Shown here one piece after another: positions 4,455 to 64,000 of a stretch of 64,000 bases of DNA. The position numbers and the translations under genes are program-made. Numbering within the stretch: the first letter of the stretch is position 1; each line of letters begins with the position of its first letter. The notes beneath the pieces are model-generated. The model was not told the origin of the DNA. It was given only the letters and a program-made list of their open reading frames with translations, and did no database searches. Source of the DNA: Caldithrix abyssi DSM 13497 (lineage in GTDB: Bacteria > Calditrichota > Calditrichia > Calditrichales > Calditrichaceae); the NCBI RefSeq assembly GCF_001886815.1, contig NZ_CP018099.1, positions 1,610,501-1,674,500 of the forward strand, written 5' to 3'.

Positions 4455-4457
4455 TGC

Positions 4458-5237: not shown

Positions 5238-5249
5238 GGGCTAACTCCA

Positions 5250-10975: not shown

Positions 10976-11034
10976 CTCTTTCAGTTCATCTTAAACCATT
11001 TACATTAATTGTGGTGCGCAGGCAAAAGTAAAGA

Positions 11035-11271
11035 TCAGGCTTCATTGCCCGCCTGTTTTTCCAGCTCTTCCATTTTTTTACGTAAGCTCAACGGCCGCAT
11101 ATCGGTCCACACTTCTTTAATATAGGCCAGGCATTCTTCTTTGCTGCCTGTTTTACCCACGTCTTTCCAGCCCAGAGGATTTTCACGGTCGGCCGGCCAG
11201 ATGGAGTATTGTTCTTCATGGTTGATCACCACTTTGTACACGGTTTTATCTTCACGTTCTTCGCGACTCAT
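11035..11271 (-). CDS. MbtH-family NRPS chaperone
   Basis: This 78-residue protein has the MbtH signature: 'VVINHEEQYSIWPADRENP' at about 11-29, 'GWKDVGKTGSKEECLAYIKE', and 'VWTDMRPLSL' near 55. These proteins bind adenylation domains and keep them soluble and active. An ideal AGGAGG sits seven bases upstream of its ATG, overlapping the end of the transporter coding region (12-base spacing). It is the only MbtH gene in the window, so it presumably serves all the adenylation domains here that need one. Confidence 0.96.
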   Translation of the reverse strand: MSREEREDKTVYKVVINHEEQYSIWPADRENPLGWKDVGKTGSKEECLAYIKEVWTDMRPLSLRKKMEELEKQAGNEA

Positions 11272-11283
11272 AATACCTCCTTT

Positions 11284-13859: not shown

Positions 13860-13998
13860 TTTTTGGCTTATTCCCCAAAATCCTTTTCTCTCTTTGCTCA
13901 AGAAGAATATTGAATTAAGCTAATATTTAACGATTTTTACCTTCACTGGTTTTGATGTTAAGCAAAAGATAGACGTAAATTCCATTTTTTCATTCTGC

Positions 13999-22900: not shown

Positions 22901-25900
22901 TGTTTGCCGTTCCAGGCTTCCAGCAGTAAACGTTTTTCTTCCGCAGGGAGGAAGTCAATACGGTCAACGGGCGTGTCGGGTTGTTGAACCAGCGCTTCGG
23001 CCAACCGCGTAAAGTGCCGCACAAAGCGCTCAATGGTGTCTTCGTCGAACAGATCGGTGTTGAATTCCAGCGCGCCGCTGAAGTGGTCGGCTTCTTCTAA
23101 CATAAAGAGCGTCATGTCGAATTTAGCGGTTTTGCTGTGCGCTTCGATGGGCTGCAGCTGCAGTTCGGAATGCGGCGCCTGCATTTCGGAGCGGCCAGAA
23201 GTTTGCAGCGCGAACATCACCTGAAAGATGGGGGAATGACTCAAATTACGTTCCGGCTGCAGGGCGTCGACCAACTTTTCAAATGGCAGATCCTGGTGGG
23301 CATAGGCGGCAAGGGCCGTTTCGCGTACCTGTTTGAGTAGCTGTAAAAAGGAAGGCCGATCTTCAAAACGCGTGCGGATGGCCAGCGTATTTACAAAAAA
23401 GCCGATCAGGTTTTCGATTTCCGGATGATTTCGATTGGCAATGGGCGTGCCGATGACGATGTCGTCCTGGCCAGAGTAGCGGTACAACATGGTTTGAAAC
23501 AACGCCAGCAGGGTCATGAATTCCGTGGCGCCTACTTTATGTGCCAGCTTTTTTAAAGCGCTGGATACTTCCGGCGACAGGTGGAAGGTTTTGTAAGAGC
23601 CGTTAAAGGTTTGCACGGCCGGACGCGGCCGATCAGTCGGCAGTTCCAGCACCGGCGGGGCGCCGGCTAATTGTTCTTTCCAGAATTCGATCTCTTTTTC
23701 CAGTACTTCGCCTTTTAACCAGTTACGTTGCCAGTAGGCGAAATCGGCGTATTGAATTTGCAGCGGCGGCAGGGGCGAATCGTCCCCGCGGCTAAAAGCG
23801 TCGTAAATGATGGCCATTTCGCGTAGCAAGACGTTGGTGGACCAATTGTCGCCGATGATGTGGTGCATGATTAAGATGATAACGTGTTCGTTGATGCCCG
23901 TGCGCACCAGCTCCAGGTGAAAGAGCGGCAGACGGTCAATGGCAATGGAACGCCAGGCCTGCTCGTTAACCAGACGTTCCACTTCGGCCTGGCGCTCGGC
24001 AGGGGGCAAATGCGTTAAATCGGTAACGGGAATTTTTACTTCAAACGGTTCGTGAATGACCTGCGCGGGTTCGCCGTCGCGGTTGTGGAAGGTAGTGCGC
24101 AGCGCCTCGTGACGCTTAATCACCTCGTTCAGGCTGCGTTGCAACACGTCCACTTTAAGGGGCCCGACAATGCGGTAGGTCTCCGGTAAATTGTAAAAGG
24201 GGCTGTCCGGCTCGAGCTGGGCCAGAAACCACAGACGCTGCTGGGCAAAAGAGAGCGGCAGCTCCTGATCGCGGCTGACCGGCACGATGGGCGGTATTTG
24301 AATGCCCTCGCTGGCCAGCTTTTGTTGATCGATGGCCATGGCCAGGCCGCCGACGGTTGGTTTTTCAAAAACGTGGCGCAACGGCAAATCGATGCCAAAA
24401 CGTTCTTTAATGCGCGAAACCAGCTGCGTGGCCAGCAGAGAGTGTCCGCCTAATTCGAAGAAATTGTGGTTCGATCCCACTTTTTCCACCGACAGCAGTT
24501 GACTGTAAATTTCCGCCAGAACTTCTTCGGTTGGCGTGCGCGGCGCCTCGTATTCCATTTCGATGGTTTCCAGCAAAAGCTTTTGATCCGGTCGGGGAAG
24601 GGCGCGGCGATTGACCTTGCCGTTGGGCGTTAGAGGCATCTCTTCCAGCTCCACAAAAGCGGAAGGCACCATGTACTCCGGCAAACGATCCAGCAGAAAA
24701 TGGCGTAGTTCTTTGTTGGTCAGCGACTTTCCGGCGGCGGGCACAAAGTAGCCGATCAATTTTTTGTCGCCTGGCGTGTCTTCGCGCAGCACAACCGCGG
24801 CGCTCTGGATGTCCGGATGCTCGTTCAGGGCCGTTTCGATTTCGCCCAGTTCCACTCGGAAGCCGCGAATTTTAACCTGATCGTCGGCGCGCCCTAAAAA
24901 TTCAATGTTGCCGTCCGGCAGGTAGCGGGCCACATCGCCGGTTTTGTACATGCGCGCGCCGGGCTGGCTGCTGAAGGGATCGGGTAAAAAGCGCTCGGCG
25001 GTTAAATCGGGACGGTTAAAGTAGCCGCGGGCCAGCCCCATGCCGCCCACGTACAATTCGCCGCGTACGCCAATGGGCACGGGTTGTAAAAATTCGTCTA
25101 AAATATAAACAGTCATGTTTTCGAAGGGTTTGCCAATGGGCACCAGCCGGTCGCCGGGCATGTTCAGTTCCCGGCTTTCAAAATAGGTGCTGTCGATGGT
25201 GGCTTCGGTCAGACCGAATGAGTTGATTAGCCGTGTTTCAGGACCGGTAAAGCCTAAAAACTTTTTATACTCGCTGACGTACCAGATGTCGGAGCCGGCG
25301 ATCAAATTGCGGAAAAAGTCCAGCTTCTGGTTGGTTTCTTCCAGGTACTGGATTAAATTGCGCAGCACGGCCGGCACAAACTCGGCAATGGTAACCTGTT
25401 GGCTACGCATCAGATCGTAAAGTTCGGCTGCTTCCAGTAAAATTTCGCGCGGCGTAAGCACCAGTTTTCCGCCGGAACAAAGTCCGCGCGTCCAGTCGCC
25501 GGAGAATACGTCAAAGGAAAAACTGGCCATTTGCAAGTGCGAACGCGCCCGGGTGCGCAGTTCGTAGGCTGTTTCCCAGGCCAGATAGGCGTTAACCAGC
25601 GAGCGATGTTGAATCATGGTTCCTTTTGCTTTGCCGGTAGAGCCCGAAGTGTAAATCATGTAAACCAGATTTTCCGGCGTAACCGGAAAAGCCGGGTTGT
25701 CATCCGGCAATTGGGTAAATTGTGCCCGGTCTTCGTCCATTAAAAGGACGCGCCCCTCAAAGTGGGGAAGCAGGTCTTTTAAACTACTCTGGGTGATTAA
25801 AAAGGTAACGCCGGCGTCTTCTAACATGTAGTTAAGCCGCTCTTCCGGGTAAGAAGGATCAAGCGGCAAATAGGCGCCGCCGGCCTTAAGTACGCCAAGC

Positions 25901-27549
25901 ACGGCCACCAGCAGATGAGCCTGACGCTCGAGCATCACGCCCACCACGGTTTCCGGACGAACGCCCTGTCGGTGCAGCAGACGCGCCAGTTGGTTGGCCT
26001 GCCTGTTGAGCTGGTCGTAGGTCAGCGTCTGATCGGGCGCCACCACAGCCGGAGCGTCTGGCGTTTCGGCCGCTCTTTTTTCAAACAGATGGTGAATGCA
26101 AAGGTGCGGATCGCGGGGCGCCTGGGTGGCGTTCCATTCCACTAAAATGCGCTGCCGTTCGTCCGGCGCAAGAAAGTTCACATTCAGCACACGCTGCTCA
26201 GGATCTTCCACCAGCGCTTCGCACAATTGTTTAAAATGGCGTCCCAAGCGCTGAATGGTGGAGCGGTCAAACAGGTCGGTGTTGTATTCGATGTCGACGA
26301 TCAGGCCGCTGCTGCCTTCTGTAATGGAAAAGGTCAAATCGTGTGTGGAAGTGCCCATGTCCACGTCAATCTGTTCAAAGGAAATATCTCCCACGCGCGT
26401 GCCTTTCATGGGCGCGTTTTGCAGAATGAGCATCACCTGAAACAGGGGCGGGTAGCTCATGTCTCGCGCGGGCTGCAGGGCGTCAACCAGATACTCGAAA
26501 GGCAAATCCTGATGATCGTAAGCGTTTAAGGTAATGTTTTTTTCGCGTTGCAAAAATTCGCGAAAGGTGGGGTTGTCGTCCAGGCGGCTGCGCAACACCA
26601 GGGTATTGATGAACAGTCCGATCAGCGGTTCGATTTCTGCACGGTTGCGATTGGCAATGGGCGTGCCAATGCTGATGTCTTTTTGGCCGGAGTAGCGGGC
26701 TAATAGCGTTTTTAAAGCCGCGGAAAGCACCATGAACAGAGTGCCGCCTTCGCGCCGCGCCAGTTGATTCAGTTTGTTGGTCAATTCAGCCGGAAAGATC
26801 ACGCGTTCCGACGAACCGACGTTCGATTGAATTTGCGGTCGCGGTCGGTCGGTCGGTAATTCTAAGGGGGGGGGATTGTCGCCCAATTGCTCTTTCCAGA
26901 ATTGGAGTTGTTCCTCCAGAACTTCGCCCTGTAAATATTCTCGTTGCCATTCGGCAAAGTCGGCGTATTGAATTTCCAGTTCGGGCAGGGGATTGGGCAA
27001 TCCCTGACTGAAGGCGGCGTATATGGCCGTGATTTCTTTGACCAGCACGCCGATCGACCAGCCGTCGGAAATGATGTGGTGCATGGTGATCAGTACCACA
27101 TGGTCGTTTTCGCCGGCTTTCAGAATTTTTACGCGGAACAACGGCCCTTTGGCCAGATCAAAGGGCGTGCGCGCCTCGACCGTGGCCAGTCGTTTAATTT
27201 CCGCGTCTTTTTTGTCTGCGGCAAGGGATGTCAGGTCGACCAGAGGAATTTCCAGCTTCATCTCCGGATGGATGATTTGCATGGGCTCGCCGTTTTGCGC
27301 CCAGAAAGTGGTGCGTAAAATTTCGTGGCGCTCGATGATTTCGTTAATGACCTTTTTAAAAATTTGCACATCAAAGGCCCCGCGCACGCGAATGGCCAGC
27401 GGAATGTTGTAATATGGACTGCCAGGCTCAAACTGATCTAAAAACCAGAAACGACGCTGCCCGAAGGAAGAAGGAAACACGTAAACTTCGTCTTCGTCAA
27501 AAGGCGTTGAATCGAATGCTTCAAATTCTGTAGTCTGGTCAACGGACAT
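13999..27549 (-). CDS. NRPS, four modules plus thioesterase (C-A-PCP)x4-TE; terminal synthetase
   Basis: This 4516-residue protein is the last synthetase of the line. Condensation domains begin near 22, 1095, 2160 and 3213. Carrier serines (GGHS) lie near 1036, 2102, 3155 and 4212. The thioesterase starts near 4275, with Ser about 4343 in 'ISSWSLGV', an Asp in 'LQLDQGPD' and a His in 'VPGDHISML'. Adenylation pockets read by hand against GrsA are DVGEIGSIDK (an exact ornithine code), DATKIGEVGK (Asn/Asp-like), DASTIAAVCK (Tyr-like) and DAETTAGVCK (aromatic-like, unresolved). The second condensation motif is HHIIGDNW instead of HHxxxDG. The N-terminus is acidic ('DSTPFDEDEVY') and may dock with the basic tail of the preceding synthetase. 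The start has AAGGAAAG seven bases upstream. The thioesterase releases the peptide; hydrolysis or cyclisation cannot be told. Confidence 0.97.
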   Translation of the reverse strand: MSVDQTTEFEAFDSTPFDEDEVYVFPSSFGQRRFWFLDQFEPGSPYYNIPLAIRVRGAFDVQIFKKVINEIIERHEILRTTFWAQNGEPMQIIHPEMKLEIPLVDLTSLAADKKDAEIKRLATVEARTPFDLAKGPLFRVKILKAGENDHVVLITMHHIISDGWSIGVLVKEITAIYAAFSQGLPNPLPELEIQYADFAEWQREYLQGEVLEEQLQFWKEQLGDNPPPLELPTDRPRPQIQSNVGSSERVIFPAELTNKLNQLARREGGTLFMVLSAALKTLLARYSGQKDISIGTPIANRNRAEIEPLIGLFINTLVLRSRLDDNPTFREFLQREKNITLNAYDHQDLPFEYLVDALQPARDMSYPPLFQVMLILQNAPMKGTRVGDISFEQIDVDMGTSTHDLTFSITEGSSGLIVDIEYNTDLFDRSTIQRLGRHFKQLCEALVEDPEQRVLNVNFLAPDERQRILVEWNATQAPRDPHLCIHHLFEKRAAETPDAPAVVAPDQTLTYDQLNRQANQLARLLHRQGVRPETVVGVMLERQAHLLVAVLGVLKAGGAYLPLDPSYPEERLNYMLEDAGVTFLITQSSLKDLLPHFEGRVLLMDEDRAQFTQLPDDNPAFPVTPENLVYMIYTSGSTGKAKGTMIQHRSLVNAYLAWETAYELRTRARSHLQMASFSFDVFSGDWTRGLCSGGKLVLTPREILLEAAELYDLMRSQQVTIAEFVPAVLRNLIQYLEETNQKLDFFRNLIAGSDIWYVSEYKKFLGFTGPETRLINSFGLTEATIDSTYFESRELNMPGDRLVPIGKPFENMTVYILDEFLQPVPIGVRGELYVGGMGLARGYFNRPDLTAERFLPDPFSSQPGARMYKTGDVARYLPDGNIEFLGRADDQVKIRGFRVELGEIETALNEHPDIQSAAVVLREDTPGDKKLIGYFVPAAGKSLTNKELRHFLLDRLPEYMVPSAFVELEEMPLTPNGKVNRRALPRPDQKLLLETIEMEYEAPRTPTEEVLAEIYSQLLSVEKVGSNHNFFELGGHSLLATQLVSRIKERFGIDLPLRHVFEKPTVGGLAMAIDQQKLASEGIQIPPIVPVSRDQELPLSFAQQRLWFLAQLEPDSPFYNLPETYRIVGPLKVDVLQRSLNEVIKRHEALRTTFHNRDGEPAQVIHEPFEVKIPVTDLTHLPPAERQAEVERLVNEQAWRSIAIDRLPLFHLELVRTGINEHVIILIMHHIIGDNWSTNVLLREMAIIYDAFSRGDDSPLPPLQIQYADFAYWQRNWLKGEVLEKEIEFWKEQLAGAPPVLELPTDRPRPAVQTFNGSYKTFHLSPEVSSALKKLAHKVGATEFMTLLALFQTMLYRYSGQDDIVIGTPIANRNHPEIENLIGFFVNTLAIRTRFEDRPSFLQLLKQVRETALAAYAHQDLPFEKLVDALQPERNLSHSPIFQVMFALQTSGRSEMQAPHSELQLQPIEAHSKTAKFDMTLFMLEEADHFSGALEFNTDLFDEDTIERFVRHFTRLAEALVQQPDTPVDRIDFLPAEEKRLLLEAWNGKQALPVLTGTVVDMFERQAAASPEAIAVEMEGQRWTYAELNQRANQLAHYLLARGVQRDQLIGVAVERSPQMLAALLGILKAGAAYVPLDVNYPQERLKFMIEDAGLKLIITSEQSAVKLPAHQAALIKIDTDWLAIATGSEANPGLAIEPQNLCYVIYTSGSTGRPKGTLIHHQGLSNYLNWIVSTYPVQKGIGSLVHSTLAFDATVTAIYSPLITGKTVYLLPDDTEIDALGEALLRYRNFSLIKITPAHLELLSKQIPPHEAADLTHAFIIGGENLTADQIEFWQQHAPETLLFNEYGPTETVVGCVVFEARQWHGSGSVPIGQAIFNTRVYVLDDHLQPTPIGVPGELYIGGIGVARGYLKRPDLTAERFIPYPFSNEPGARLYKTGDLVRYLKNGQLEFIGRVDHQVKIRGYRIELGEIENVLQENDQVQDAVAVVRSDFANDPRLVAYIIPADKETFDEASLRAFLKERLPDYMVPGWFVLLERFPLTPNGKIDRKALPRPDYAQSEKQEEWVAPRTPDEEILAGIWQEILHLPQVGVHNNFFELGGHSLLATQLMSRIREAFGVELPLKDLFEAPTIAELTLKIEQARLQTTGVKIPPLTRQPRSGQLPLSFAQQRLWFLDQLSPDSPFYNIPAAVRIKGQLNVQALEKAVNEIIRRHEVLRTIFVNNNGQPAQKILDDVSFELPIIDLQNESDRDEKVRRLLNRDAMQPFKLDRWPLFRLQLVKLSEHDFIFMFTMHHIISDGWSTSVFMREVGALYEAFSKGLPSPLPELPIQYADFAAWQRSWLKDDVLQEQLNYWKEKIGINPPVLNLPLDHPRPPVQTFNGDAVAGQLPEDISGKLNRLAQQYSVTPFMALLAVFQTLLHHYANQDEILVGSPIANRNYRATEDLIGFFVNTLVLRSDFNLVNTFEELLAQVRETTLGAYAHQDLPFEQLVEVLQPERDMSHSPLFQVMFVLQNTPPGSQSMEFPTIRLEVLEAEERTAKFDLTLVMAESPEGYFYEFEYNTDLFEKSTIERMARHFEILLKQLVEKPAQPLARLELVSGQEKKQIVEEWNQTDAALPEQAVIQALFEQTVEQFAGRPALVYKDQTLTFKALNEKANRLAHYLRARGIKVEIPVAISVERSPEMVIGLLAILKAGGVYLPVDPAYPPERIAYIVQDARPPLLLTQEKLKPLFEAYDVQILTFEALEKELAGQPSENPPIINEAENLAYMIYTSGSTGQPKGAMLAHCGLVNLTLEQIKDFALQPESRVLQFASFSFDASVSEIFTTLVSGAALYLIDRDEMLDVAKAINRYQISVITLPPSVSSLINPQEVPSLKTLISAGEACSVQLAQKWHKHLRFLNAYGPTENTVCASRYFVTEKPKGSAVPIGRPIGNVELYILNKEMMVLPVGVPGELYIGGVNLARGYLNRPDLTAERFVPHPFARKPGQRLYKTGDLARFLPDGNIEFLGRIDFQVKIRGFRIELEEIENVLMQHPQVEDAVVLVREDQPGQKLLAAYCVASGEEEPDAEALKAFCKKSLPDYMTPQAILFLEAFPLTPNGKIDRRALPAPDYEALQAEKYVAPRTSEEEALAAIFAGILNLEKVSVTESFFNLGGHSLLATQLASRIRDEFNVEIPLISIFENPTVAQLVTVIEEQRLKQKGPQLPPFKRIPRDQDIPLSFAQQRLWFLDQLAPDNATYNIPTALKISGRFNLPVFEKTLNFLVERHETLRTTFANKNGTPVQVIKETLSIKPAVVDLTHLPEKEREREALRLATEDAMEPFDLEIGPLFRVKVLKLADDQHVVLFNMHHIISDGWSVSILIREFAQVYESYLKEMIPPLPDLPIQYADFAVWQREWLSGDVLQEQIDYWKSTIGLNPEPLNLPTDFPRPAVQTFNGSSLDRLYPKELLERLKAFSRENGATLFMTLLAAFEALLHRYSGQDSILVGSPIANRRQTELENLIGFFVNNLVLKGEFDDDPDFVTLLQRVRKNTLEAYAHQDLPFENLVEILQPERDMSHAPIFQVMFVMQNTPVQPVQLSDVRLEPIIPEQKIAKYDLSLVVMETEDGLFAEFEYNTDLFRKETIERLHNHFQKLLEDVLQSPQKPVSTLSLITEQELKLFTREWNRIPSEPPLDVCIQTLFEQRAARTPDKTAVVYENERLTFEQLNIRANRLAHYLREIGVGPEKIVAISLERGQQMIISLLAVLKAGGAYLPIDPEYPSDRLNYMLKDSRAKWLITSQQLKEKFSDFSGQLIIQEEIESVLKAKPADNPQIVNRPQNLAYIIYTSGSTGRPKGVMLQHRGLVNLVFSLGGFYGVNAQSRTLQFASFSFDASVEEIFNTLINGATLYLIDRQTLLSGTGLVNALKSYKITNVTLPPSLLNVLNPQDFPHLKNITSAGEACTPEIANKWAQGRRFVNGYGPTENTVCATVYNVEEPLKGNTVPIGHPIHNVQVYVLNRAMIHQPIGVPGELYIGGPGLARGYLNRPDLTAERFVPNPFSEKPGERLYRTGDLVRFLPDGNLEFLGRIDKQVKIRGFRVELGEIEAAIRQHKGVKGAAVNAVKTTTNETALAAYLLVEEREKFDLAALKQEIKKILPDYMVPAAFILLDEFPLTPNGKINYRALPVPQFDQSGEVKQTVKARNTLEARLVDIWKEVLGVTTIGVTDSFFELGGHSLLAMKLLTAVEQKLGKDVNLVSFFREPTIEHMARLIEEDAPFESGATLVKLKSGDDRQPLFFVHPSGGSVHHYAELAKLLKTHRSVYGIQAQGLDGKMPLHQTVEDMASAYIQTIKQKQPHGPYLISSWSLGVIIVHEMARQFKAMGDEVALVLQLDQGPDVTYEKPADNAEMLVNMFKRYFKLDIDYLRTLDEASQFKFVIKKAKKHKVIPRFVRLNDFKRYILVNETQIMAWVNYRQKPYEGEIVLLRSEENAKADPPDLGWAKMVQKVRIIDVPGDHISMLLQPHVQIVADKIDRLLKDL

Positions 27550-28642: not shown

Positions 28643-28675
28643 GTCGTAAGTTTTCCCACTTTGGACGAATTTATT

Positions 28676-28714
28676 TCCCTCTCTCCCACTTTGTGGGGAT
28701 TAAGGGGGCGGGGA
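28676..28714. repeat. Palindromic intergenic repeat, copy 6 (partial)
   Basis: A shortened variant like copy 4 (CCCTCTCTCCCACTTTGTGG, then GATTAAGGGGGCGGGG). It ends eight bases from the stop codon of the NRPS gene that ends at 28722. Confidence 0.65.
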
Positions 28715-28721
28715 AACACCC

Positions 28722-37168: not shown

Positions 37169-37198
37169 AATGTAAGGCCTCCGCATAATGTTTTTTTT

Positions 37199-52891: not shown

Positions 52892-55800
52892 TTATTCTAA
52901 TTCCTCTAACAATGCATCCAGGTCTTCATCATCAATGCCTGCCTCTTTGAAGTCGGAGGCCGTGTAGCCGCCCGCTTCCGGAGAGAGACAGTGTTCGATT
53001 AAGGTCTTCAACTCTTCAGTAAAAAGCTTGGCAAAGCGTTCAACGGTCTCCTTTTTAAATTGCTCTGCGCTAAAAGAGAAATTCATGTTCAGGACATTGT
53101 TAACCACATTTCCACCGATTTCAATAAGATGAATGCGCTGATTTTCAGGAGCCCGTTCCGGAGCTAAGGCCGGGATTGGTTCTCCCAGATCACCGGCTTG
53201 ATTGTTTTCCTGCTCAAACTGGCCCAGGTAATTAAAGCCAATGGGCGCCGGCTGATCGGGAATTAAAGCATTGGCGTCTTTTCTTAAATACCTGAGGAGA
53301 CCGTAGCCAATCCCATGGTTTGGAACGGCGCGGTACTGTTCCTTCACCTGGCGAATCAAATCCGACGGTTGCCAGGTACTGTCATATTTTAAGCGCAAGG
53401 GATGGCTGACCGTAAACCAGCCCACCGTTCTGGAGATATTGACATCTTCAAACAGGTCTTCGCGGCCGTGGCCTTCTAAATCGAGCAGCAGATCAGACTG
53501 GCCGCTCCAGCGGTAGTAGGCGCGTAGCAGGGCTGCCAGCAGCAGTTCGTTGATTTGCGTGTTGTAGGCCGCCGGCGCTTCTCGCAGCAGCTGTTCGGTC
53601 TCTTCTTTGCCCAGAGCCACTTTAACACTGTCGGCGGTTTGCTCCACATTTTTCCCGACTGGATTGTCCACTGGCAGACTGATTGGCGGCCCTTCGATTT
53701 GCTGCCGCCAGAAATCCAGTTCGCGGGCCACCTCTTCGCTTTGCGCGTACTGCTGCAATTTTTCCGCCCAGTATTTAAAGGAAGTTGTTTTGGGCGAAAG
53801 AATGACCTCTTTTCCGGCCAGCAACTGGTTGTAGGCCTGTAAAATATCTTCGCTTAAAATGCGCCAGGAAACCGTGTCCACAATCAGATGGTGGATGGTG
53901 ATCTGCAAAAGGTCGTGTTCGTCGGTTTGAAAATAGTCAAAACGAATGAGCGGCCCAATGCTCAGGTCAAAGCCGGACTGGGCCTTAAGAGCTTCGTTTT
54001 GTAATTTTTCATTTAACGTGTTTCCGCTGAGTCCGCGTAAATCATGAATGAAAAACGGGTTTTGCGCGGCCTGTGCCGGGATTTCGGCTACAATTTTCCC
54101 GTCCTGCTGCACAAAGGTAGCGCGCAGCACATCGTGATGTTCAAGAATTTTGCTGGTAATCTGGCTGAGAATTTCCGTGTTTAGCGGCTCACGCAGTCGA
54201 ATCGTTAACGATTGATTCCAGTACGCCGGTTGGTTCAGGTTCAAATCAAAAAACCAGTTTTGAATGGGTGTTAGCGGAAAAGAGCCGCTCACCAGCCCCT
54301 GCTCGGCCTGAATGGCGATGCCCTCTTCGGCTACCGAGGCCAGCCCTTCGATGGTTGGGTATTCGAACAACTGACGCGGCGAAATCTTTAAACCTTTTTG
54401 ATTGGCGCGGGCAATGACCTGAATGCTCAAAATGGAGTCGCCGCCCAGCTCAAAAAAGTTGTCTTTTACGCCGATTTTGGGCAGTTTTAAGACCTCCTGC
54501 CAGATTTCAGCGAGCATTTTTTCCCGCTCGTTGCGCGGCGCCACGTAGTTCTTTTCCAGACGGTCTTCGGAAATTTGCGGCTCTGGCAGTCGCTTACGAT
54601 CAATCTTACCGGTGGCCGTAACCGGGAATTTTTCCAGCGCCACAAAATAAGAAGGAATCATGTAATCGGGCAGGGTGCGGGCCAGAAAATCTCTCAGCTC
54701 GGCAATAGTCAGGGAGGCGTCCTGTTCGGGAATAAGGTAGGCCACCAGTTTATCGGCGCCTTCCAGCGATCTGGCCAGCACAATGGCCTCTTTAACGCCC
54801 GGATGTTGTTCCAGCGCATTTTCAATCTCGCCTAATTCAATGCGGAAGCCGCGAATTTTAACCTGAAAGTCAACGCGGCCGGCAAAAACGACTTCGCCCT
54901 GCTGGTTAAAATAACCCAGGTCGCCCGTTCGGTAAAGCCGTTGCCCGGGTTCGCTGCTGAAAGGATCCGGTACAAAGCGCTCGGCCGTTAAATCTGGCCG
55001 GTTTAAATAGCCGCGCGTTACGCCCGCGCCGCCGATGTAAATTTCGCCTGCCACGCCTGTGGGAACGGGATTCATAGCCGTGTCCAGAATGTAAACACGG
55101 ACATTGTTAATGGCCTGACCAATAGGCAGAGCATTGTGCGCAAAATTTTTCGTTGCATCCAGTAATGTTTTGTAATAGAGGCTGGTTATGGTGGCTTCGG
55201 TCGGCCCATACATGTTCATAAAAACCACCGGCTTACGTGTCAGTGTACCGGCAAGTTGAAATTTTTGGATGGATGGCGCTTCGCCGCCTACCAGCATCAT
55301 GCGCACGGAGTCCGGAATCGAAAGGTTGTTTTCGTTTAGATAATCGATGAAATAGTGCCACATGGGAACCGGCAGGTGCAAAATGCTGATCTGGTGCCGT
55401 TTGATGATGTTGACCAGGTCGGCTCCGGTCATTTCTGTAGCCGAAGGGGCCAGCGCCAGAGCCGCTCCGCTGAGCAGCGTGGGGTAAATCTCTTCTGCTG
55501 CCGCGTCAAAACTGATGGAGATGTACTGCAACATGCGGTCTTCCGGCGTAAGCTGGTAAATCTCTTTAATGGCCAGCGCATGATTGACCAGCGAACGATG
55601 TTCCACCATCACGGCCTTGGGCTTGCCGGTCGAGCCGGATGTGTAGATCAGATAGGCCAGATTTTCGGGCTCAATATGGCGCCGCGGATTTTCAGCAGAT
55701 TCGGCGTCAAAAGGCAGGGCGGCGTCGTCGAGCGCCAACGTCGTACCGTTATGGCCGGCAAAACGCTGGGCCAGAGATTTTTGCGTTAAAACAAGTTTTA

Positions 55801-58800
55801 CGCCGGAGTCGTTTAAAATGTAATCGATTCTCTCCTGCGGATAATGGGGATCGATAGGCAGGTAAGCCGCGCCGCTTTTCAAAACGCCCAACAGGCCCAC
55901 AAAAAGTTCAGGCGAACGCTCCAGGGCAATGGCCACCACATCTTCCTGCCCGATGCCTGCGTGATTGAGATAGTGGGCCAGTTGATTGGCGCGCCGATTG
56001 AGCTGATCGTAAGTTAGTGCAGCATCTTCCGTTAAAATGGCGGGATGCTGCGCTTCGTTTTTGACCAGCTCTTCAAAAAGAGCGACCACGTTAACGTGTT
56101 CGGAGACGGGCTTGCGACTGAACCGATCGTAACCGCTCAGGATGCGTTCCCTTTCGGCTTCGCTCAACAGATTTAAGGCGCGTACCGGTTTTTGTTCGTC
56201 CTGAGCAATATCGCGCAGCAAGTTGGTAAAATGCTCGATGAATTTTTCGATGGTTTGCGCTTTGAACAACGCCGTGTTGTATTCCACCATGCCCCTGAAT
56301 TGATCTTCATCTTCAATCATGGCCAGACTCAGGTCAAACTTGGATGTGCCGGTTTCCACCTGTAAGGGCTCAATTTCCAGATTGGAAAGCGCCATCTTCT
56401 TTAAAGGATTTTGCTGGTAAATAAACATTACCTGAAAAAGGGGCGTGTAGCTGGTATCGCGCTCTAAATTCAAAGCGTCAATTATTTTTTCGAAGGGCGC
56501 GTCCTGGTTGGCCAGGGAATCCTGAACCATTTTTTGCACCTGCTCTAACAGTTCGTCGAAAGAGGGATTGCCTTCTAATTCAAAACGTAAAGGAATGGAA
56601 TTGACAAAAAAGCCAATCAGGTTCTCAATTTCTTTGCGTGTCCGACCGGAAACCGGCGTGCCAATGACCAGATCGTCCTGCCCGGAATAGCGGTGCAGTA
56701 AAATGGAAAAGGCGGAAAGCAGAACCACGTAAGGCGTTGTTCTGTGACGATTGGCTATTGCTTTGATTTTAGCGCTGAGTTCCGCAGGCAGTTCCAGGTA
56801 CGTTTTACTGCCTTTGAAAGACTGCACTTTAGGTCTTGGGAAATCGGTTGGTAATTTTAATAGTTGGGGCGCGCCCGAAAGTTGATTTTGCCAGAAACGG
56901 AGTTGTTTTTGTAAAACTTCGCTTTCCAGCCACTGGCGTTGCCATTTAGCGTAAGCGCTGTACTGAAAGGGCAACGGCGGTAATTGCGCTTCCTTGCCCT
57001 GCAACAGGGCCTGGTAAAAGGCGCTGACCTCTTTAATCATGATTTCCAGCGAAAGACCATCGGAAATGATGTGGTGCATGTTCAAAATAAAAATGGCTTC
57101 GTCGTCTTGCAGCTGGATTAAACGCGCGCGGAAAAGCGGCGCCTGACTCAATTTAAACGGCGTACTGGCTTCGTTTTTAATCAGCGTTTCAATCTGCCGG
57201 TTCTGTTCTTCAGGCGACAGCTGACTTAAGTCAAGCCATTCAATGGGCGTATGGAGGCGGGGAAGAATTTCCACCTCAGGTTGACCGTTAACGGTTTTAA
57301 ACGCCGTGCGTAAATTTTCATGACGCTCAACCACTTTGTTGATGGCTTTTTCCAGTAAATGACGTTTAATTGGCCCCTTGATGCGTACCGTCATGGGCAT
57401 GTTGTAAAAGGGGTTGTCCGGCTCTAATTGATCCAGGAACCACAAGCGTTGCTGGGCAAAAGACATCTGTGGTTTTTCGTCTGGTTTCAATGGCTCAATA
57501 GGACGGATGACTTTACCGATGGAATATTCCAATTCTTTGCGTTTTTCGTAACCCAATTCTTCCACCAGCTGCCAGGTTAAATCACTCAGGTAATCTTCGG
57601 TGAGCGTGCGTTTCCAGCTGTAGGCCCGATCCGCGCTGATGCCTTTGTGTTCATGAAAGCGCACATCGCCCAGCATTTTGGAAAGATCGTTTAATCCATC
57701 GAGCATGCGTTTGTGGCTGTTTTTTTGCGGTTCTAACATATCCGGGTGCAAATCAATGCCCAGAAAATCGCACACGCTCTGAATGGTTTTTTCCGGCTCC
57801 TGCACCAGGTCTTCGTAGTAAAGGCGGAATTGCCGTTCCGGCGGAATTTCCTGTAAAAAGGTCAAAATGTTGCGATGGCTGATGAGCCAGACCAGTTCCG
57901 CCAGTTGACGTGAATTGAACGGGTGTTCCTGAGTAAAGAACGGCGGATAAAAAACGTGCAGGCGCGCCTTTTCGAAAGAGGGGATGACGCCGTACGGATG
58001 GCGGATCAGATGAATGTAGATGGCGTTTTCGAAGTAGGCTTCGGCGCGGCGTAAAATATCGGCGCTCAGGGCGTAGTTGGGCGTTTTGTCCACAAAAAGG
58101 CGGTCGCCCAGCCATTCCTGCATGACGCGGTAAAAATCTTTAACAGAGTAGTCTTTTTCTTCGAATTCGGCCATGATTTTACGCGCTTCGTCGGCGTCGC
58201 ACTCTTTAATTTCCATGATAGCGCGGATCGTTCCGTCCAGCCAGAAATCGTCGCGGCCGGTCAGGTTGTTCTTACGCTCCTGCAGGGTATTAAAGTTCAG
58301 TAGCTGCAGTTCGGGCGGCGCAAACAGTTTAGGATGACCGCCCAGAATGGCGCGCGTTAAGGTCGATCCGGAGCGCGGCGCCGAGATCACGAACACAGCC
58401 GGCGGATTTTTCGGCCCTCTGACGCTGATGTGCGGCCCGGGCGTTTTGATGATGTTCTGGAAAAAGGCGGCCTGTTCTTCAGAAATCCGCTCTTTTTCTT
58501 CGCGCTTTTCCACTTTTTCGCCGGTGATGCGGTAAACGGCGTCCGGATAATCTTTTTTCAGCAGTTCGCAAAGCCCGGCGATGGTGGGCGCGTCGTAAAT
58601 GGCCACGATGTAAACGTATTCGCCCAGGGCGTCCTGCAAGCGATTGACAAAGGTGGCCGCCTGAATGGAGCTGCCGCCAAGCTGAAAAAAGTTGTCGTGG
58701 ATGCCAATCTGTTCCATGCCCAGAATGTCTTTCCACATGTCGTACAAAAATTTTTCCAGCCTGGTGGTGGGAGGTACGTAATTTTCGCCCACGGCGCCCA

Positions 58801-61800
58801 CGCCTTCTTTAAACGGATCGGGCAGGGCTTTTCGATCTACCTTGCCGGTGGGCGTGAGCGGAATGGCTTTTAACGTCACAAAAAAAGATGGAATCATGTA
58901 GTCCGGCAGTCTTTCCGCCAGCCAGTGGCGCACCGTTTCTTCGGAAAAATCGTCTTTGTTTTGCGGAACAATGTAAGCCACCAGCTTCTTTTCCGAGCCG
59001 TTTTGCTCCTGAGCGAAAACGACGCATTGTTTGACGGAAGGATGGCGCTCGATGGCGGCTTCGATTTCGCCCAGTTCGATTCTAAAGCCGCGAATTTTAA
59101 CCTGGAAATCAACGCGCCCGGCAAAAATGATTTCGCCGTTGGAATTAAAACGACCCAGATCGCCGGTGCGGTACATGCGCGCGCCCGGTTCCTTGCTGAA
59201 AGGATCCGGCAAAAAGCGCTCGGCCGTCAAATCCGGCCGATTTAAGTAGCCGTGAGTCACGCCAAATCCGCCGATGTAGATTTCTCCCAGAACGCCCTGC
59301 GGAACCGGCTGCAGTGCGCGGTCGAGCAAGTACACGCGGTCGTTTGGGATGGGTTTGCCGATGGGAATAAAATTGTATTCAAAGGATTTTTCTTCATCCA
59401 TTTCGGTGTGGAAAAATGTACTGGCAATGGTGGTTTCGGTCGGGCCGTAAAGGTTGACAAAAACGGCCTTTTTGTTTTGCAACAGACGGGCGGCCTGGCG
59501 GAATTTTTGAATGGACGGCTGTTCGCCGCCGGCCAGCATCATGCGAATCGATTGCGGAATCTCTTCGCCCCGTTCGCTCAGAAAGTCGATAAAATAATGC
59601 CAGACGGGCACCGGCACATGCATGATGTTGATCTGTTCTTTTTGAATTAAATTTAAAAGATCGAAACCGCTTAATTCGCTGGCATGACCCGGAAGCACTA
59701 ACGAGGCGCCGCTCATGAGCGCCGGATAAATTTCTTCGGCGGCTGCGTCAAAACTGATGGAGATGTACTGCAGAATCTTTTCGCCTGCTGTAAATTCGTA
59801 TTCGTTGCACATGGTCCGAGTGTGGTTCAAAAGCGAGCGGTGGGGCACCATTACGGCTTTGGGCTTGCCGGTCGATCCGGATGTGTAAATTAAGTAGGCC
59901 AGCGCATTCTGGGGCACAGGCACTTGCGGGTTTTCGGTCGAAAATTGGGCCAGCAATGGCTGGTTGGCGTCGATAGGCAGAATGTCGGCGCCTGATTCCT
60001 TAAAATATTCGGCCAGGTTTTCCTCGGTTAAAATAAGCCTTAGCTTCGAATCGTCCAGAATGTAGCGAATGCGTTCCTGCGGATAATTGGGATCGATAGG
60101 AAGATAGGCGGCCCCAGCCTTAAGGATGCCCAGCAGGGCCATAAACAATCGGTTCGAACGGTTAATGGCCAGTCCCACAATATCGCCAGGTCCGATATTT
60201 TGTGAGATCAAATAATGAGCAATCTGATTGGCGCGCCGATTGAGTTCGGCATAAGTTAGCTTTTCCGGAGATTGGCTGAAATCGGATTTAGAATAATCGA
60301 TTAAGGCAATGGCCTGGGGTGATTCTTCAACCCTTAGTTCGAACCGCTGATGAACGCACACGCCTGCGGGCAGCGGCTCCTGCCTGCCCCTGCTCCAGTT
60401 TTCCAGAATGTGGTTTTGTTCAACGGCATCCAGAATGGGCAGTTGCCAGCTTCTGGTATCCGGATTCTGGATGGCCTGACGCGTTAAGTTTTTAAAATAT
60501 TTTATGAAGCGTTCGACGGTCTCTTTTTTGAACAGATCGCTTTTGTAACCAAACGAACCCCGGATCAGGCCGTCGGTGATGTTGATGGACAGCACCAGGT
60601 CAAACTTGATGGAGCCCGTTTCCAGTTCCAGCGGCTCCACTTCCAGCGGGCCAAAGCGTCCCTTTTGTAAAGAGACTTCCTGAAAGTCGAACAGCACATT
60701 GCTCAAAGGATTGTCGCTGGTGTCCCGATCAGGGAAGAGTTTGTTGATCAGTATTTCCAGCGGAATGGTTGCATGGCCCACGGCCTGGGTAATCGTTTGC
60801 CGCACGCGGTTCAGATAATCCCTGAAGGTCAAATGGTCGGCCACTTCGTTTTTAAGAATCACCACATTGATGAACAGGCCGATCAGGTTGGCCAGCTCCG
60901 GTTTGTCGCGGTTGGCAACCGGCGTTCCGATGCGAATATCCGTTCGGTTGGTGAGCTTGGCCAGTAAAAGCGAAAAAACGGCTTCTAAAAAGACGAAGGG
61001 CGTTATTTTTTCCTGCTTGCAAAATTCAAGCACTCTGGCGCTTAATTCGCTTCCCAGATCAAACGGCAGATGAAAGCCGCGGTTGGTGACGCTGGAGGAA
61101 GGCGAAAAATCGTAAGGCAGTTCCAGCCTGCCCTGCGGCTCGTCCAGTTGTTTTTCCCAGTAGGCAATCTGTTCCTGTCCTTCGGCGCTGTTGATGAATT
61201 TTTCCTGCCAGTAAGCGTAGTCAAAATACTGGATGGGTAGGGGGGGCGATGCGGGATTCTGACCGCTGGCATAGGCCTGGTAAGCGGAGAGCAGCTCTCG
61301 TACGAACACGCCAACCGACCAGGCATCGGCGACGATATGGTGAAATGTAGTGCAGAGTACGTGGTCGTTTTCTTTGATTTTAATGAGCTTAACGCGTAGC
61401 AACAAATCCCTGGAGATGTCGAAGGGCCGGGTGGCTTCTTCGTGGATGAGTTTTTGTAATCGTTCCTCTTTCTCAGATTCATTGTCGAACGTTAATTCAG
61501 TCAGCGGCACATCCAGTTCAACAAAAGGCCTAATCGTCTGTTTGGGGCGCCCTTTTTCAGTCTTAAAATTGGCGCGTAAAATTTGGTGGCGCTGCACGAT
61601 GTGATTCAGCGCTTTTTTAAAGGCTTCAATATTAAGCGCCCCTTTTATGCGCACGGCGGACGGAATGTTGTTGATGGCCAGTCCGGCGTTCAGCTGCTCC
61701 AGCACCCAAAAACCTTTCTGGCTGTGCGAAAGAGGAAAGTCGCTGGCGTCCGGACGTACGTTAATGGCGGCGCGCGGAGCGCTTTTTTGGGCTTTGCGTA

Positions 61801-61870
61801 ATTTGGCTAAAAGTAACTCTCTTTTTTCAGGGGAAAGGCCTGCCAGTCGTTTCTTTAAATCATCAGACAT
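52892..61870 (-). CDS. NRPS with embedded sulfotransferase, C-A-PCP-ST-C-A-PCP-E
   Basis: This 2992-residue protein has a basic N-terminal helix ('KKRLAGLSPEKRELLLAKLR') and an atypical first condensation domain (HHIVADAW in place of HHxxxDG). An adenylation domain follows, then a carrier with GGSS (Ser about 1066). A PAPS-dependent sulfotransferase sits at about 1155-1445 ('ISAPRSGSTLTRAIL', 'IYIHLIRHPYGVIPSFEKAR'). After it come a second condensation domain, adenylation domain and carrier (GGDS, about 2478), and an epimerase at about 2530-2980 ('IHHLIVDTVSWRIL', 'EGHGREDLF'). Hand-read pockets are DAEHLGLIAK and DAEHLGMITK, near-twins with an unusual Glu/His pair; I know no match. The sulfotransferase probably acts on the residue held by the neighbouring carrier, while the second residue becomes D. 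GGAG lies about ten bases before the ATG. Confidence 0.96.
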   Translation of the reverse strand: MSDDLKKRLAGLSPEKRELLLAKLRKAQKSAPRAAINVRPDASDFPLSHSQKGFWVLEQLNAGLAINNIPSAVRIKGALNIEAFKKALNHIVQRHQILRANFKTEKGRPKQTIRPFVELDVPLTELTFDNESEKEERLQKLIHEEATRPFDISRDLLLRVKLIKIKENDHVLCTTFHHIVADAWSVGVFVRELLSAYQAYASGQNPASPPLPIQYFDYAYWQEKFINSAEGQEQIAYWEKQLDEPQGRLELPYDFSPSSSVTNRGFHLPFDLGSELSARVLEFCKQEKITPFVFLEAVFSLLLAKLTNRTDIRIGTPVANRDKPELANLIGLFINVVILKNEVADHLTFRDYLNRVRQTITQAVGHATIPLEILINKLFPDRDTSDNPLSNVLFDFQEVSLQKGRFGPLEVEPLELETGSIKFDLVLSINITDGLIRGSFGYKSDLFKKETVERFIKYFKNLTRQAIQNPDTRSWQLPILDAVEQNHILENWSRGRQEPLPAGVCVHQRFELRVEESPQAIALIDYSKSDFSQSPEKLTYAELNRRANQIAHYLISQNIGPGDIVGLAINRSNRLFMALLGILKAGAAYLPIDPNYPQERIRYILDDSKLRLILTEENLAEYFKESGADILPIDANQPLLAQFSTENPQVPVPQNALAYLIYTSGSTGKPKAVMVPHRSLLNHTRTMCNEYEFTAGEKILQYISISFDAAAEEIYPALMSGASLVLPGHASELSGFDLLNLIQKEQINIMHVPVPVWHYFIDFLSERGEEIPQSIRMMLAGGEQPSIQKFRQAARLLQNKKAVFVNLYGPTETTIASTFFHTEMDEEKSFEYNFIPIGKPIPNDRVYLLDRALQPVPQGVLGEIYIGGFGVTHGYLNRPDLTAERFLPDPFSKEPGARMYRTGDLGRFNSNGEIIFAGRVDFQVKIRGFRIELGEIEAAIERHPSVKQCVVFAQEQNGSEKKLVAYIVPQNKDDFSEETVRHWLAERLPDYMIPSFFVTLKAIPLTPTGKVDRKALPDPFKEGVGAVGENYVPPTTRLEKFLYDMWKDILGMEQIGIHDNFFQLGGSSIQAATFVNRLQDALGEYVYIVAIYDAPTIAGLCELLKKDYPDAVYRITGEKVEKREEKERISEEQAAFFQNIIKTPGPHISVRGPKNPPAVFVISAPRSGSTLTRAILGGHPKLFAPPELQLLNFNTLQERKNNLTGRDDFWLDGTIRAIMEIKECDADEARKIMAEFEEKDYSVKDFYRVMQEWLGDRLFVDKTPNYALSADILRRAEAYFENAIYIHLIRHPYGVIPSFEKARLHVFYPPFFTQEHPFNSRQLAELVWLISHRNILTFLQEIPPERQFRLYYEDLVQEPEKTIQSVCDFLGIDLHPDMLEPQKNSHKRMLDGLNDLSKMLGDVRFHEHKGISADRAYSWKRTLTEDYLSDLTWQLVEELGYEKRKELEYSIGKVIRPIEPLKPDEKPQMSFAQQRLWFLDQLEPDNPFYNMPMTVRIKGPIKRHLLEKAINKVVERHENLRTAFKTVNGQPEVEILPRLHTPIEWLDLSQLSPEEQNRQIETLIKNEASTPFKLSQAPLFRARLIQLQDDEAIFILNMHHIISDGLSLEIMIKEVSAFYQALLQGKEAQLPPLPFQYSAYAKWQRQWLESEVLQKQLRFWQNQLSGAPQLLKLPTDFPRPKVQSFKGSKTYLELPAELSAKIKAIANRHRTTPYVVLLSAFSILLHRYSGQDDLVIGTPVSGRTRKEIENLIGFFVNSIPLRFELEGNPSFDELLEQVQKMVQDSLANQDAPFEKIIDALNLERDTSYTPLFQVMFIYQQNPLKKMALSNLEIEPLQVETGTSKFDLSLAMIEDEDQFRGMVEYNTALFKAQTIEKFIEHFTNLLRDIAQDEQKPVRALNLLSEAERERILSGYDRFSRKPVSEHVNVVALFEELVKNEAQHPAILTEDAALTYDQLNRRANQLAHYLNHAGIGQEDVVAIALERSPELFVGLLGVLKSGAAYLPIDPHYPQERIDYILNDSGVKLVLTQKSLAQRFAGHNGTTLALDDAALPFDAESAENPRRHIEPENLAYLIYTSGSTGKPKAVMVEHRSLVNHALAIKEIYQLTPEDRMLQYISISFDAAAEEIYPTLLSGAALALAPSATEMTGADLVNIIKRHQISILHLPVPMWHYFIDYLNENNLSIPDSVRMMLVGGEAPSIQKFQLAGTLTRKPVVFMNMYGPTEATITSLYYKTLLDATKNFAHNALPIGQAINNVRVYILDTAMNPVPTGVAGEIYIGGAGVTRGYLNRPDLTAERFVPDPFSSEPGQRLYRTGDLGYFNQQGEVVFAGRVDFQVKIRGFRIELGEIENALEQHPGVKEAIVLARSLEGADKLVAYLIPEQDASLTIAELRDFLARTLPDYMIPSYFVALEKFPVTATGKIDRKRLPEPQISEDRLEKNYVAPRNEREKMLAEIWQEVLKLPKIGVKDNFFELGGDSILSIQVIARANQKGLKISPRQLFEYPTIEGLASVAEEGIAIQAEQGLVSGSFPLTPIQNWFFDLNLNQPAYWNQSLTIRLREPLNTEILSQITSKILEHHDVLRATFVQQDGKIVAEIPAQAAQNPFFIHDLRGLSGNTLNEKLQNEALKAQSGFDLSIGPLIRFDYFQTDEHDLLQITIHHLIVDTVSWRILSEDILQAYNQLLAGKEVILSPKTTSFKYWAEKLQQYAQSEEVARELDFWRQQIEGPPISLPVDNPVGKNVEQTADSVKVALGKEETEQLLREAPAAYNTQINELLLAALLRAYYRWSGQSDLLLDLEGHGREDLFEDVNISRTVGWFTVSHPLRLKYDSTWQPSDLIRQVKEQYRAVPNHGIGYGLLRYLRKDANALIPDQPAPIGFNYLGQFEQENNQAGDLGEPIPALAPERAPENQRIHLIEIGGNVVNNVLNMNFSFSAEQFKKETVERFAKLFTEELKTLIEHCLSPEAGGYTASDFKEAGIDDEDLDALLEELE
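57535..58405 (-). other. Embedded sulfotransferase domain between PCP and C
   Basis: About 290 residues inside the 2992-residue synthetase. The 5'-phosphosulfate loop is S-A-P-R-S-G-S-T and is followed by 'HPKLFAPPELQLLNFNTLQE'. Further on come 'LFVDKTPNYALSADILRRAE' and the 3'-phosphate motif R-H-P-Y-G-V-I-P-S-F. 'FAPPE' and 'VDKTP.YA' are features I recall from the sulfotransferase domains of the polyketide synthases CurM and Ols. It replaces nothing: all the usual domains around it remain. Confidence 0.9.
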
Positions 61871-61902
61871 CTATTTTCTACTCCTGTCCTTTCGTGTGCA
61901 TG

Positions 61903-64000
61903 TTAAAAATATCCGAGCTTTCTGGCCACCTCGATGGACATTTCGCTTAAAAAGTCTTTATGGTGGAAATTTTTCCAGCGCGTGGCCGCTCTGGGATCGA
62001 TTTTGCGATACAGGTAAAATTTGTAATCGCCCACCATTTGCCTATTTTTTTGCATGCCGCTGGTCATTTTATCGCCGTGATAGGGTTCTAACATCTCCGG
62101 CTCAAAAGGCAGCTTTAAAAACTGGCACAATTGGCGAATTTCTCTTTCCGGATTTTGGAGCAGATCTTCATATTTTAGTACATATTTTCGCTGTTCCGGA
62201 ATTTGACTTAAAAAGTTTATGATATTCAGATGGCTAACTAACCAGATGAGTTCGGCCAGCTGTCGTCGGGTAAAAGGATGTTCGAATTTAAAAAAGTTCT
62301 GATCCAGCCTGGCCTCCAGAAAGGAGTAAATTGTGGCGTACGGATGGCGCTGAAGATGAATGTACAGCGTGTTTTCAAATTCTTCTTCCGCACGGTTTAA
62401 AATGTTTAGATCGATGGCATAAGCGGGCGTTTTATCCACAAATAGCTGTGGATTGATCTTCATTTGCAGGCGCCTGTAAAATTCATGGGTGGAGATGTTC
62501 TGCCGGAGATAGGCGTCGTAAATTTCCTGCGCTTCCGTTTCATCGCAGTGAAAGACTTCCATTAACGTTCTGGGGATGGCTTCATTCCAGAGGAGCAGCC
62601 CGCTTTTTTCAAAAAACTCGTGTCGTTCTTTTAAAAAGTTAAAGGAGAGAAGATCCATTTCCGGCGGGGCAAAGAGCCGGGAGTGGCCTTGCAAAATGAC
62701 GCGCAGCAAGGTTGAGCCCGAGCGCGGCGGAGAGAAGATAAAAATGGCCTGCTTGTTTTTTTGTGGGGCGGTAGAAGAATCAACACGTAAGGGCACAATA
62801 ATTTTTTTAAACCGCTCCAGCGCCTCTTCCGTAAGTACAGGTTCGTTTGCAATGGCCCGCCATCTTTCTTCGGCGCAATCCTGTGGTAAAGGCGGTACCT
62901 TGCCGAATTTTTTTTCAACGAAATCGGAGAAATATTCCTGCATGAACAGGGCAAATTGTTCGACCGTGGGCGCGTAAAGCAAAACGCCGGGCGGCGGCAG
63001 GTGATGAAAGTCATCGATCAGTTGTTGAATAAAGCGCTGCGCTTTTTGATCGTCTCCGCCCCGGGCAAAAAAGTTGTCGGTAACAGAAAGTTCATCCACC
63101 TGCAGAACCTGCTTCCACAATTCTAAAATGTATTTTTCCACTTCATTTCTAGGCGGTATGATGGATGGATTGGCTTCAGGCTGCGTCATGGAAGCAGACT
63201 CGTCGTTTTCGCCTTCTTCTAACAGTTTGCTTACTTCTTCGTCGCTTAAATCTTCCAGTTCGGCCAGTAAGGATTCCAATTCTTCCGGGCTTTCCTGTTC
63301 CAGTTGCGCTTCGGCGATCTGGTTGGCAATGCCGTCAATGGTGGGATACTCGAAAAAAGTTCTGAGGGGCAGATTAACGCCAAACTCTTCCTGAATTTTT
63401 GAAACCACCTGCGTGGCCATCATGGAGTGGCCGCCCAGTTCAAAAAAGTTATCGAACACGCCAACCTGTTCAATGTTTAAAATTTCGCGCACGATTCTCG
63501 CCAACTTTTCTTCCGATTCGGTGCGCGGCGCAACAAACGGCGCGGAAGAACGAATCCTGGAAAAATCAGGTCTGGGCAGGGCATGGCGGTTGATTTTACC
63601 GGCCGGAGTGAGGGGGATTTTTTCCAGCCGGATAAAAAGAGCGGGAATCATGTACTCAGGTAAAAATTGACGTAATTTTTCTCTCAATAATTCCTGCTTT
63701 AGTTCCTGGCCGTCTTCGGCTTCGTAATAGGCCACCAGAGTTTTGTCGCGTCGCTCCACATCAAAGGCCTGCACCACGGCCTGTTTGATGCCCGGCAGTT
63801 CGTTGAGAATGGATTCGATTTCACCCAATTCAATACGAAAACCGCGGATTTTTAACTGATGGTCCACCCGTCCTAAAAATTCAATGTTGCCGTCCGCCAG
63901 AAAACGCACGCGATCGCCGGTTTTGTAAACGCGCCCTCGTTCCGGTTTTAAGGGATTGAGGACAAAACGTTCTTTTGTTAAATCGTCGCGTTTTAAATAG
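61903..64000 (-). CDS. NRPS 3' part: A(partial)-PCP-degenerate PCP-sulfotransferase; 5' end outside window
   Basis: The frame is open from the right edge (first full codon at 63999), giving 698 visible residues. They begin inside an adenylation domain just before its A8 region ('YKTGDRVRFLADGNIEFLGR'). A normal carrier follows ('DNFFELGGHSMMATQVVSKI', Ser near base 63424), then an acidic helix ('SLLAELEDLSDEEVSKLLEE'). A second carrier-like domain has no phosphopantetheine serine ('NFFARGGDDQKAQRF'). A C-terminal sulfotransferase ends the protein ('FSPPRSGSTLLRVILQGH', 'LYIHLQRHPYATIYSFLEAR'). The stop is 32 bases before the next synthetase start, so both are surely co-transcribed. The pocket residues that would show its substrate lie outside the window. 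It is the most upstream synthetase seen; more may precede it. Confidence 0.95.
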   Translation of the reverse strand, partial: YLKRDDLTKERFVLNPLKPERGRVYKTGDRVRFLADGNIEFLGRVDHQLKIRGFRIELGEIESILNELPGIKQAVVQAFDVERRDKTLVAYYEAEDGQELKQELLREKLRQFLPEYMIPALFIRLEKIPLTPAGKINRHALPRPDFSRIRSSAPFVAPRTESEEKLARIVREILNIEQVGVFDNFFELGGHSMMATQVVSKIQEEFGVNLPLRTFFEYPTIDGIANQIAEAQLEQESPEELESLLAELEDLSDEEVSKLLEEGENDESASMTQPEANPSIIPPRNEVEKYILELWKQVLQVDELSVTDNFFARGGDDQKAQRFIQQLIDDFHHLPPPGVLLYAPTVEQFALFMQEYFSDFVEKKFGKVPPLPQDCAEERWRAIANEPVLTEEALERFKKIIVPLRVDSSTAPQKNKQAIFIFSPPRSGSTLLRVILQGHSRLFAPPEMDLLSFNFLKERHEFFEKSGLLLWNEAIPRTLMEVFHCDETEAQEIYDAYLRQNISTHEFYRRLQMKINPQLFVDKTPAYAIDLNILNRAEEEFENTLYIHLQRHPYATIYSFLEARLDQNFFKFEHPFTRRQLAELIWLVSHLNIINFLSQIPEQRKYVLKYEDLLQNPEREIRQLCQFLKLPFEPEMLEPYHGDKMTSGMQKNRQMVGDYKFYLYRKIDPRAATRWKNFHHKDFLSEMSIEVARKLGYF
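61906..62765 (-). other. C-terminal sulfotransferase domain of the upstream NRPS
   Basis: About 285 residues with S-P-P-R-S-G-S-T, 'LFAPPEMDLLSFNFLKE', 'LFVDKTPAYAIDLNILN', R-H-P-Y-A-T-I-Y-S-F and 'RRQLAELIWLVSHLNI'. It aligns along its whole length with the embedded sulfotransferase of the next synthetase, so the two are close paralogues. Confidence 0.9.
62940..63165 (-). other. Serine-less carrier-like domain
   Basis: It has the length and helix pattern of a carrier protein: 'EVEKYILELWKQVLQVDELS', then 'TDNFFARGGDDQKAQRF', then 'YAPTVEQFALFMQEYF'. The position of the modified serine is Asp (codon GAT at 63049-63051, after GGC GGA GAC). It cannot be phosphopantetheinylated. It joins a normal carrier to the terminal sulfotransferase and may serve as a recruiting or spacing domain. 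Confidence 0.85.

Follow-up and report, generated by a model that had tools for sequence, protein, structure and literature searches.

We propose that Caldithrix abyssi encodes a hybrid lipopeptide assembly line in which PAPS-dependent sulfotransferase (ST) domains, fused into consecutive nonribosomal peptide synthetases (NRPSs), O-sulfonate the carrier-bound chain, with the sulfate kept in the product; we put the probability of this reading at about 0.6. It is favored by the CurM/Ols-type fold of both domains, their intact PAPS and core residues, an APS kinase gene (required for PAPS) in the genome, and purifying selection on both domains; by class-wide conservation, co-occurrence with a free ST, and an ST lineage that tracks pocket class; and by the preference for Ser/Thr pockets at ST modules outside the class. 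Retention of the sulfate is favored because described on-line NRPS counterparts keep theirs (PMC6520454, PMC2533009). Against O-sulfonation stand the Ile/Val and Lys/Arg-like pockets accompanying two of the ST classes (ST-I and ST-III), the lack of a working carrier beside one of the two domains, and replacement by Tyr, in that same domain, of a His found in CurM and Ols. Among the roles offered by an earlier sequence-only reading of this DNA, on-line O-sulfation emerges as the best.

The host genome is a single contig of 4.98 Mb, and the biosynthetic cluster runs along its minus strand from genome position 1695366, past the right end of the 64,000-nucleotide window (the whole stretch of DNA analysed), to about window position 9462; the NRPS, ST and tailoring features located below all lie on this strand, in window coordinates. 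In order of synthesis, the line begins with a 3868-aa FAAL-ACP-KS-AT-(DH, ER and KR-like region)-ACP-C-A-PCP protein, a 603-aa carnitine-acyltransferase-like protein whose gene separates the cluster's two PKS genes (L009:10381-12192, window-equivalent 71381-73192), and a 1554-aa KS-AT-KR-ACP protein encoded outside the window, just upstream of the first ST-bearing NRPS. The 1563-aa C-A-PCP-PCP*-ST and 2992-aa C-A-PCP-ST-C-A-PCP-E proteins come fourth and fifth, followed by NRPSs of 2155, 2632, 2127 and 4516 aa, the last of which (13999..27549) has four modules and ends in an ordinary TE; after the NRPS genes come the free ST and then genes for an MFS exporter, a type II TE and a PPTase (9462..12675). 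Our reading of the first PKS module is that its DH has Pro in place of His and its ER and KR motifs are broken, and that the KR of the 1554-aa protein is intact (GGLGRIG, Ser and Tyr present); the likeliest hydroxyl early in the chain would therefore be the one made by this KR. We saw no gene for a hydroxylase among those examined in the cluster, and Rfam gave no matches. Interspersed with the NRPS genes are a gene for a secreted protein that has an Ig domain and a C-terminal tail of sorting type (35240-37186), a DUF559 gene (28183-28719) and a PIN-domain gene (52207-52596). Below the cluster, positions 2065-9302 encode a sigma-54 regulator, a Ser/Thr kinase and secreted proteins; similarly sized genes also come after the cluster in two other genomes (G011 and G016).

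The fused STs lie in consecutive NRPS proteins, as the sequence-only reading had it, and both match PF13469 far beyond chance (E-values 1.6e-26 for ST-a and 2.5e-33 for ST-b). ST-b (57536..58408; aa 1155-1445; class ST-II) is internal to the 2992-aa NRPS (52892..61870; Pfam and domain map), between PCP and C. Its module comprises a C domain (60404..61744), an A domain with code DAEHLGLIAK (58841..60343) and a PCP with its serine intact (GGSS; 58541..58771); directly after ST-b come a C domain (56138..57478), an A domain with the twin code DAEHLGMITK (54605..56077), and the PCP and epimerization-type domain that end the bimodule (52976..54520), the protein's last C domain being assigned to this type by its HHLIVDTVSWR motif. 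ST-a (61906..62757; aa 1280-1563; class ST-I) forms the C-terminus of the 1563-aa NRPS, whose 3′ part occupies 61903..64000 and whose gene continues to window-equivalent 66594. This protein has an intact PCP1 (GGHS; 63319..63510) in a module with code DAENIGAITK, and then PCP* (62920..63153), a degenerate ST-linked carrier that reads GGDD, has no phosphopantetheine serine, and directly precedes ST-a. Both STs are thus fused to a carrier within a megasynthase, the one adjacent to ST-a being degenerate. The sequence-only reading had overlooked this second carrier, the KS-AT-KR-ACP protein upstream and the wide distribution of such STs.

Judged by sequence and predicted fold, ST-a and ST-b are assembly-line STs of the CurM/Ols type. 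They are 44% identical to each other, and their closest solved structures are the STs of CurM (curacin A, PDB 4gbm) and Ols (olefin synthase, PDB 4gox), at 34-40% identity and E-values of 1e-52 to 1e-68 (4gbm: 1.7e-63 for ST-b, 8e-68 for ST-a). AlphaFold models of PCP-ST and PCP*-ST (pLDDT 91.5 and 92.1) gave 4gbm and 4gox as top Foldseek matches, with TMt 0.93 for ST-b and 0.92 for ST-a; the proposed comparison with CurM and Ols thereby placed both domains in that group. Human TPST1 and TPST2 follow far behind as the next structural neighbors, sharing the RSG(T/S)T loop but only about 13-20% identity, and acting outside any assembly line. The PAPS motifs claimed for each domain held up on checking: both domains, like those of the relatives, retain the P-loop, the PPE Glu, the VDK Lys, the RHP Arg, and Ser, Asp, Phe and Trp positions, the PPE Glu lying at what we take to be the position of the TPST catalytic Glu. 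Loss of catalytic residues, which the sequence-only reading had named as evidence against its proposal, was not found at the PAPS and core positions checked. A His common to CurM and Ols is Tyr in ST-a, Arg in two relatives, and His in the ST-a of another genome of the class (G001).

The CurM and Ols STs prepare a decarboxylative elimination (PMC3903477, PMC6274090), and this kinship is one argument that the sulfate is instead a leaving group, the ST activating a β-hydroxyl (of Ser/Thr or KR-made) for elimination to a dehydro-residue or alkene before the next condensation; enrichment of Ser/Thr pockets at ST modules outside the class is another. Like CurM, Ols and the ST-TE of haliamide HlaB, the present line places an ST behind a carrier in a megasynthase, and it too has a FAAL and a KS-AT-KR-ACP protein. 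However, theirs are terminal KR-ACP-ST-TE units, whereas the present STs belong to NRPS modules and the chain continues. No decarboxylating TE follows either domain, a C domain following ST-b and the protein end following ST-a; neither a lyase domain nor a CurM-type decarboxylating TE was matched; and the cluster's terminal TE, like the TEs of two PCP-ST-TE relatives, matches ordinary NRPS TEs. Described in-line NRPS STs keep their sulfate, and a free ST accompanies the cluster. We consider an eliminated sulfate, one of the roles floated earlier and one for which no positive evidence emerged here, quite unlikely.

The nearest described NRPS counterparts of the fused domains are the STs built into the synthetases for cyanopeptolin and dysinosin. 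The Planktothrix cyanopeptolin synthetase (oci) has an ST domain (PMC2533009), as does dysinosin DysB, whose product bears a sulfated glyceric acid with the sulfate kept (PMC6520454); sulfazecin SulN likewise sulfonates a PCP-bound peptide, on diaminopropionate (PMC11298585). These published on-line cases run counter to the earlier assumption that NRPS sulfation is mainly late tailoring. Locus L064, which we examined in detail, encodes an FkbM-methyltransferase, FkbH and PCP-ST-C-A-PCP-E, matching the described DysB domain set, and ST-b shares about 50% identity with the L064-type ST, more than with CurM. The order PCP-ST-C-A-PCP-E, common to L064 and cyanobacterial relatives, links DysB and cyanopeptolin to the present bimodule; 12 cyanobacterial loci end in it, one of them split across two ORFs. 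In those systems, however, the ST lies at the loading end with FkbH and glyceric acid, whereas here STs occupy elongation modules, are repeated up to three times, and in one case lack a working carrier. FkbH/glyceric acid loading before the ST carrier is absent: C-A-PCP precedes ST-b, and no FkbH shows up in P0001 or P0002. As far as the open-access literature searched shows, in-line NRPS STs have been described at loading ends, and the internal, repeated ones and the copy behind a dead carrier are new; they would carry on-line sulfation beyond loading-end cases into elongation modules.

Of 40 sampled genomes of the class Calditrichia, 21 carry fused STs. On contigs long enough, the plan is constant, with KS-AT-KR-ACP leading to a C-A-PCP module of near-invariant code (DAENIGAITK) and then to one to three C-A-PCP-ST-C-A-PCP-E bimodules; the bimodules are usually repeated in genomes of the class, and the dedicated, repeated ST use suspected from this one genome is borne out. 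On a tree the domains form three classes, ST-I (including ST-a), ST-II (including ST-b) and ST-III. ST lineage is associated with pocket class (14 changes versus at least 27 in 100 shuffles), an association to which common descent within proteins contributes.

Under O-sulfonation of the growing chain on its carrier, with PAPS as donor, ST-b would act on the residue that its own module loads. The twin A pockets noticed in the sequence-only reading are indeed present, and both DAEHLGLIAK and DAEHLGMITK resemble codes of ApnA A1 (anabaenopeptin), the best single-domain solved match of the A domain in the ST-b module. With codes such as DVEDIGAIEK or DVESIGAIAK, variants of ApnA A1 select Arg, alone or together with Tyr or Lys (PMC5311044), and S243H moves ApnA A1 specificity to 4-azidophenylalanine (PMC11253843); in our alignment, His occupies the S243 position of the DAEH pockets. 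The ST-b pocket would accordingly be of Arg/Tyr/Lys type, with Tyr the option that could be sulfated at oxygen, and Arg or Lys only at nitrogen. Searching the literature for the exact A codes returned no paper, although tables with spaced letters would escape such a search. The DAEH pocket is also paired with ST-II domains in Chloroflexota (L062, L067).

These basic options suggest N-sulfonation, a SulN-like sulfamate on Arg, Lys or a diamino acid: the pockets beside ST-II and ST-III resemble the Arg/Lys/Tyr-activating ApnA A1 codes (PMC5311044), and SulN sets a precedent on carrier-bound diaminopropionate (PMC11298585). SulN resembles the present domains in sulfonating on the assembly line (a prediction here), but it is a free enzyme that acts in trans and makes an N-sulfonate, whereas ST-a and ST-b are fused; CurM/Ols and glycerate STs sulfonate oxygen, ST-I domains accompany Ile/Val and Ser pockets, and ST modules outside the class favor Ser/Thr. 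We regard N-sulfonation as very unlikely. O-sulfonation has its own difficulty in that the pockets of ST-I modules are often of Ile/Val type and those of ST-III modules Lys/Arg-like, so that the residue of the module itself offers no hydroxyl, although ST-I is also found with Ser pockets. The Ile/Val pockets, which occur both with ST-I and in one group of Chloroflexota, indicate that the module's own residue is not always the target; wherever the upstream sequence is long enough, a KR-PKS module lies two modules back.

The 1563-aa protein offers a natural experiment, a decayed carrier beside a constrained ST. Among the relatives examined, C-A-PCP-PCP*-ST replaces the first bimodule in this genome and G001 alone. 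PCP* still fits the profile of ST-linked PCPs better than that of ordinary ones (61 versus 36 bits; 62 versus 47 in G001), and its serine site reads GGDD here and GGTP in G001, whereas other ST-linked carriers keep the serine. When the two genomes are compared, identity and Ka/Ks are 46% and 0.33 for PCP*, 70% and about 0.14 for ST-a, and 86-87% and 0.06-0.10 for working PCPs, the Ka/Ks ratios being rough because synonymous sites are near saturation. From this anatomy and selection, a former bimodule appears to have lost its residues and kept its ST, and an ST still needed after loss of its cassette's own module suggests that the target lies elsewhere on the chain and is not a residue of that module. 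The substrate would then be held on PCP1, and ST-a would most probably act on the KR-made β-hydroxyl, or else on the residue of the DAENIGAITK module. That ST-a is instead a non-catalytic structural leftover beside a still active ST-b would fit the dead carrier in both genomes and the change of the CurM His to Tyr, but ST-a has diverged far less than PCP*, its other checked active-site positions are kept, and the His is present in the ST-a of G001; we think this unlikely. Relative to known systems, the novelty is a C-terminal ST behind a serine-less carrier, with the ST yet under constraint.

The third, free enzyme of the sequence-only reading is present at the cluster end (12780..13901 from a TTG start or 12780..13859 from an ATG start; PF13469 score 6e-36); this enzyme, P0003, accompanies the cluster but belongs to another subfamily. 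Its match to ST-b is short and weak, and we rejected it as a third copy of the fused domain, since it represents a different, distant ST subfamily. Of the 21 genomes with fused STs, 20 have an orthologue, as against 2 of the 19 that lack them (Fisher p 4e-8); in at least five it shares a contig with the cluster. The enzyme may add a further, late sulfate.

Outside the class, a scan of GTDB genomes returned 75 loci in many phyla, most of them NRPSs with PCP-ST; this paralogous cassette offers a hook for finding sulfated lipopeptides. Outside Calditrichota, Ser/Thr pockets were found in 11 of 29 ST-bearing modules versus 4 of 42 other modules (p 0.005, or 0.04 once one clade is collapsed). It seems improbable that PCP-ST is a general NRPS editing unit, forming a sulfate ester on-line to prepare elimination or some other displacement that yields a dehydro-residue or alkene from Ser, Thr or a ketide β-hydroxyl, with ST-a a carrier-independent version serving a neighboring carrier. 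Five proteobacterial loci (L086:5500-13983 from Delftia, L082, L098 from Thalassomonas, L103 and L063) have the form C-A(Thr)-PCP-ST-C-A(Gly)-PCP-TE, which in three cases comes immediately after a KS-AT-KR-ACP protein; such a compact two-residue system is an apt test case for NRPS ST function. Three NRPS proteins end in ST-TE (L081:5536-10860, L077:5671-10716 and L118:6286-10683), a domain order that recalls CurM; we rejected such PCP-ST-TE relatives as NRPS versions of CurM, both TEs tested being of the ordinary type. Tandem PCP-ST-PCP-ST occurs in Melioribacteraceae (L116:3-9026), and a similar arrangement, split between L110:1425-6065 and the next ORF, in Bacteroidota. Tandem STs at genome position 1793969 were rejected as a further NRPS, the ORF being glycosyltransferase/TPR-like and adjoining flagellar genes; at L012:7963-13521, flagellar genes adjoin a protein of 1852 aa that combines two PF13469 ST domains with glycosyltransferase-like regions.
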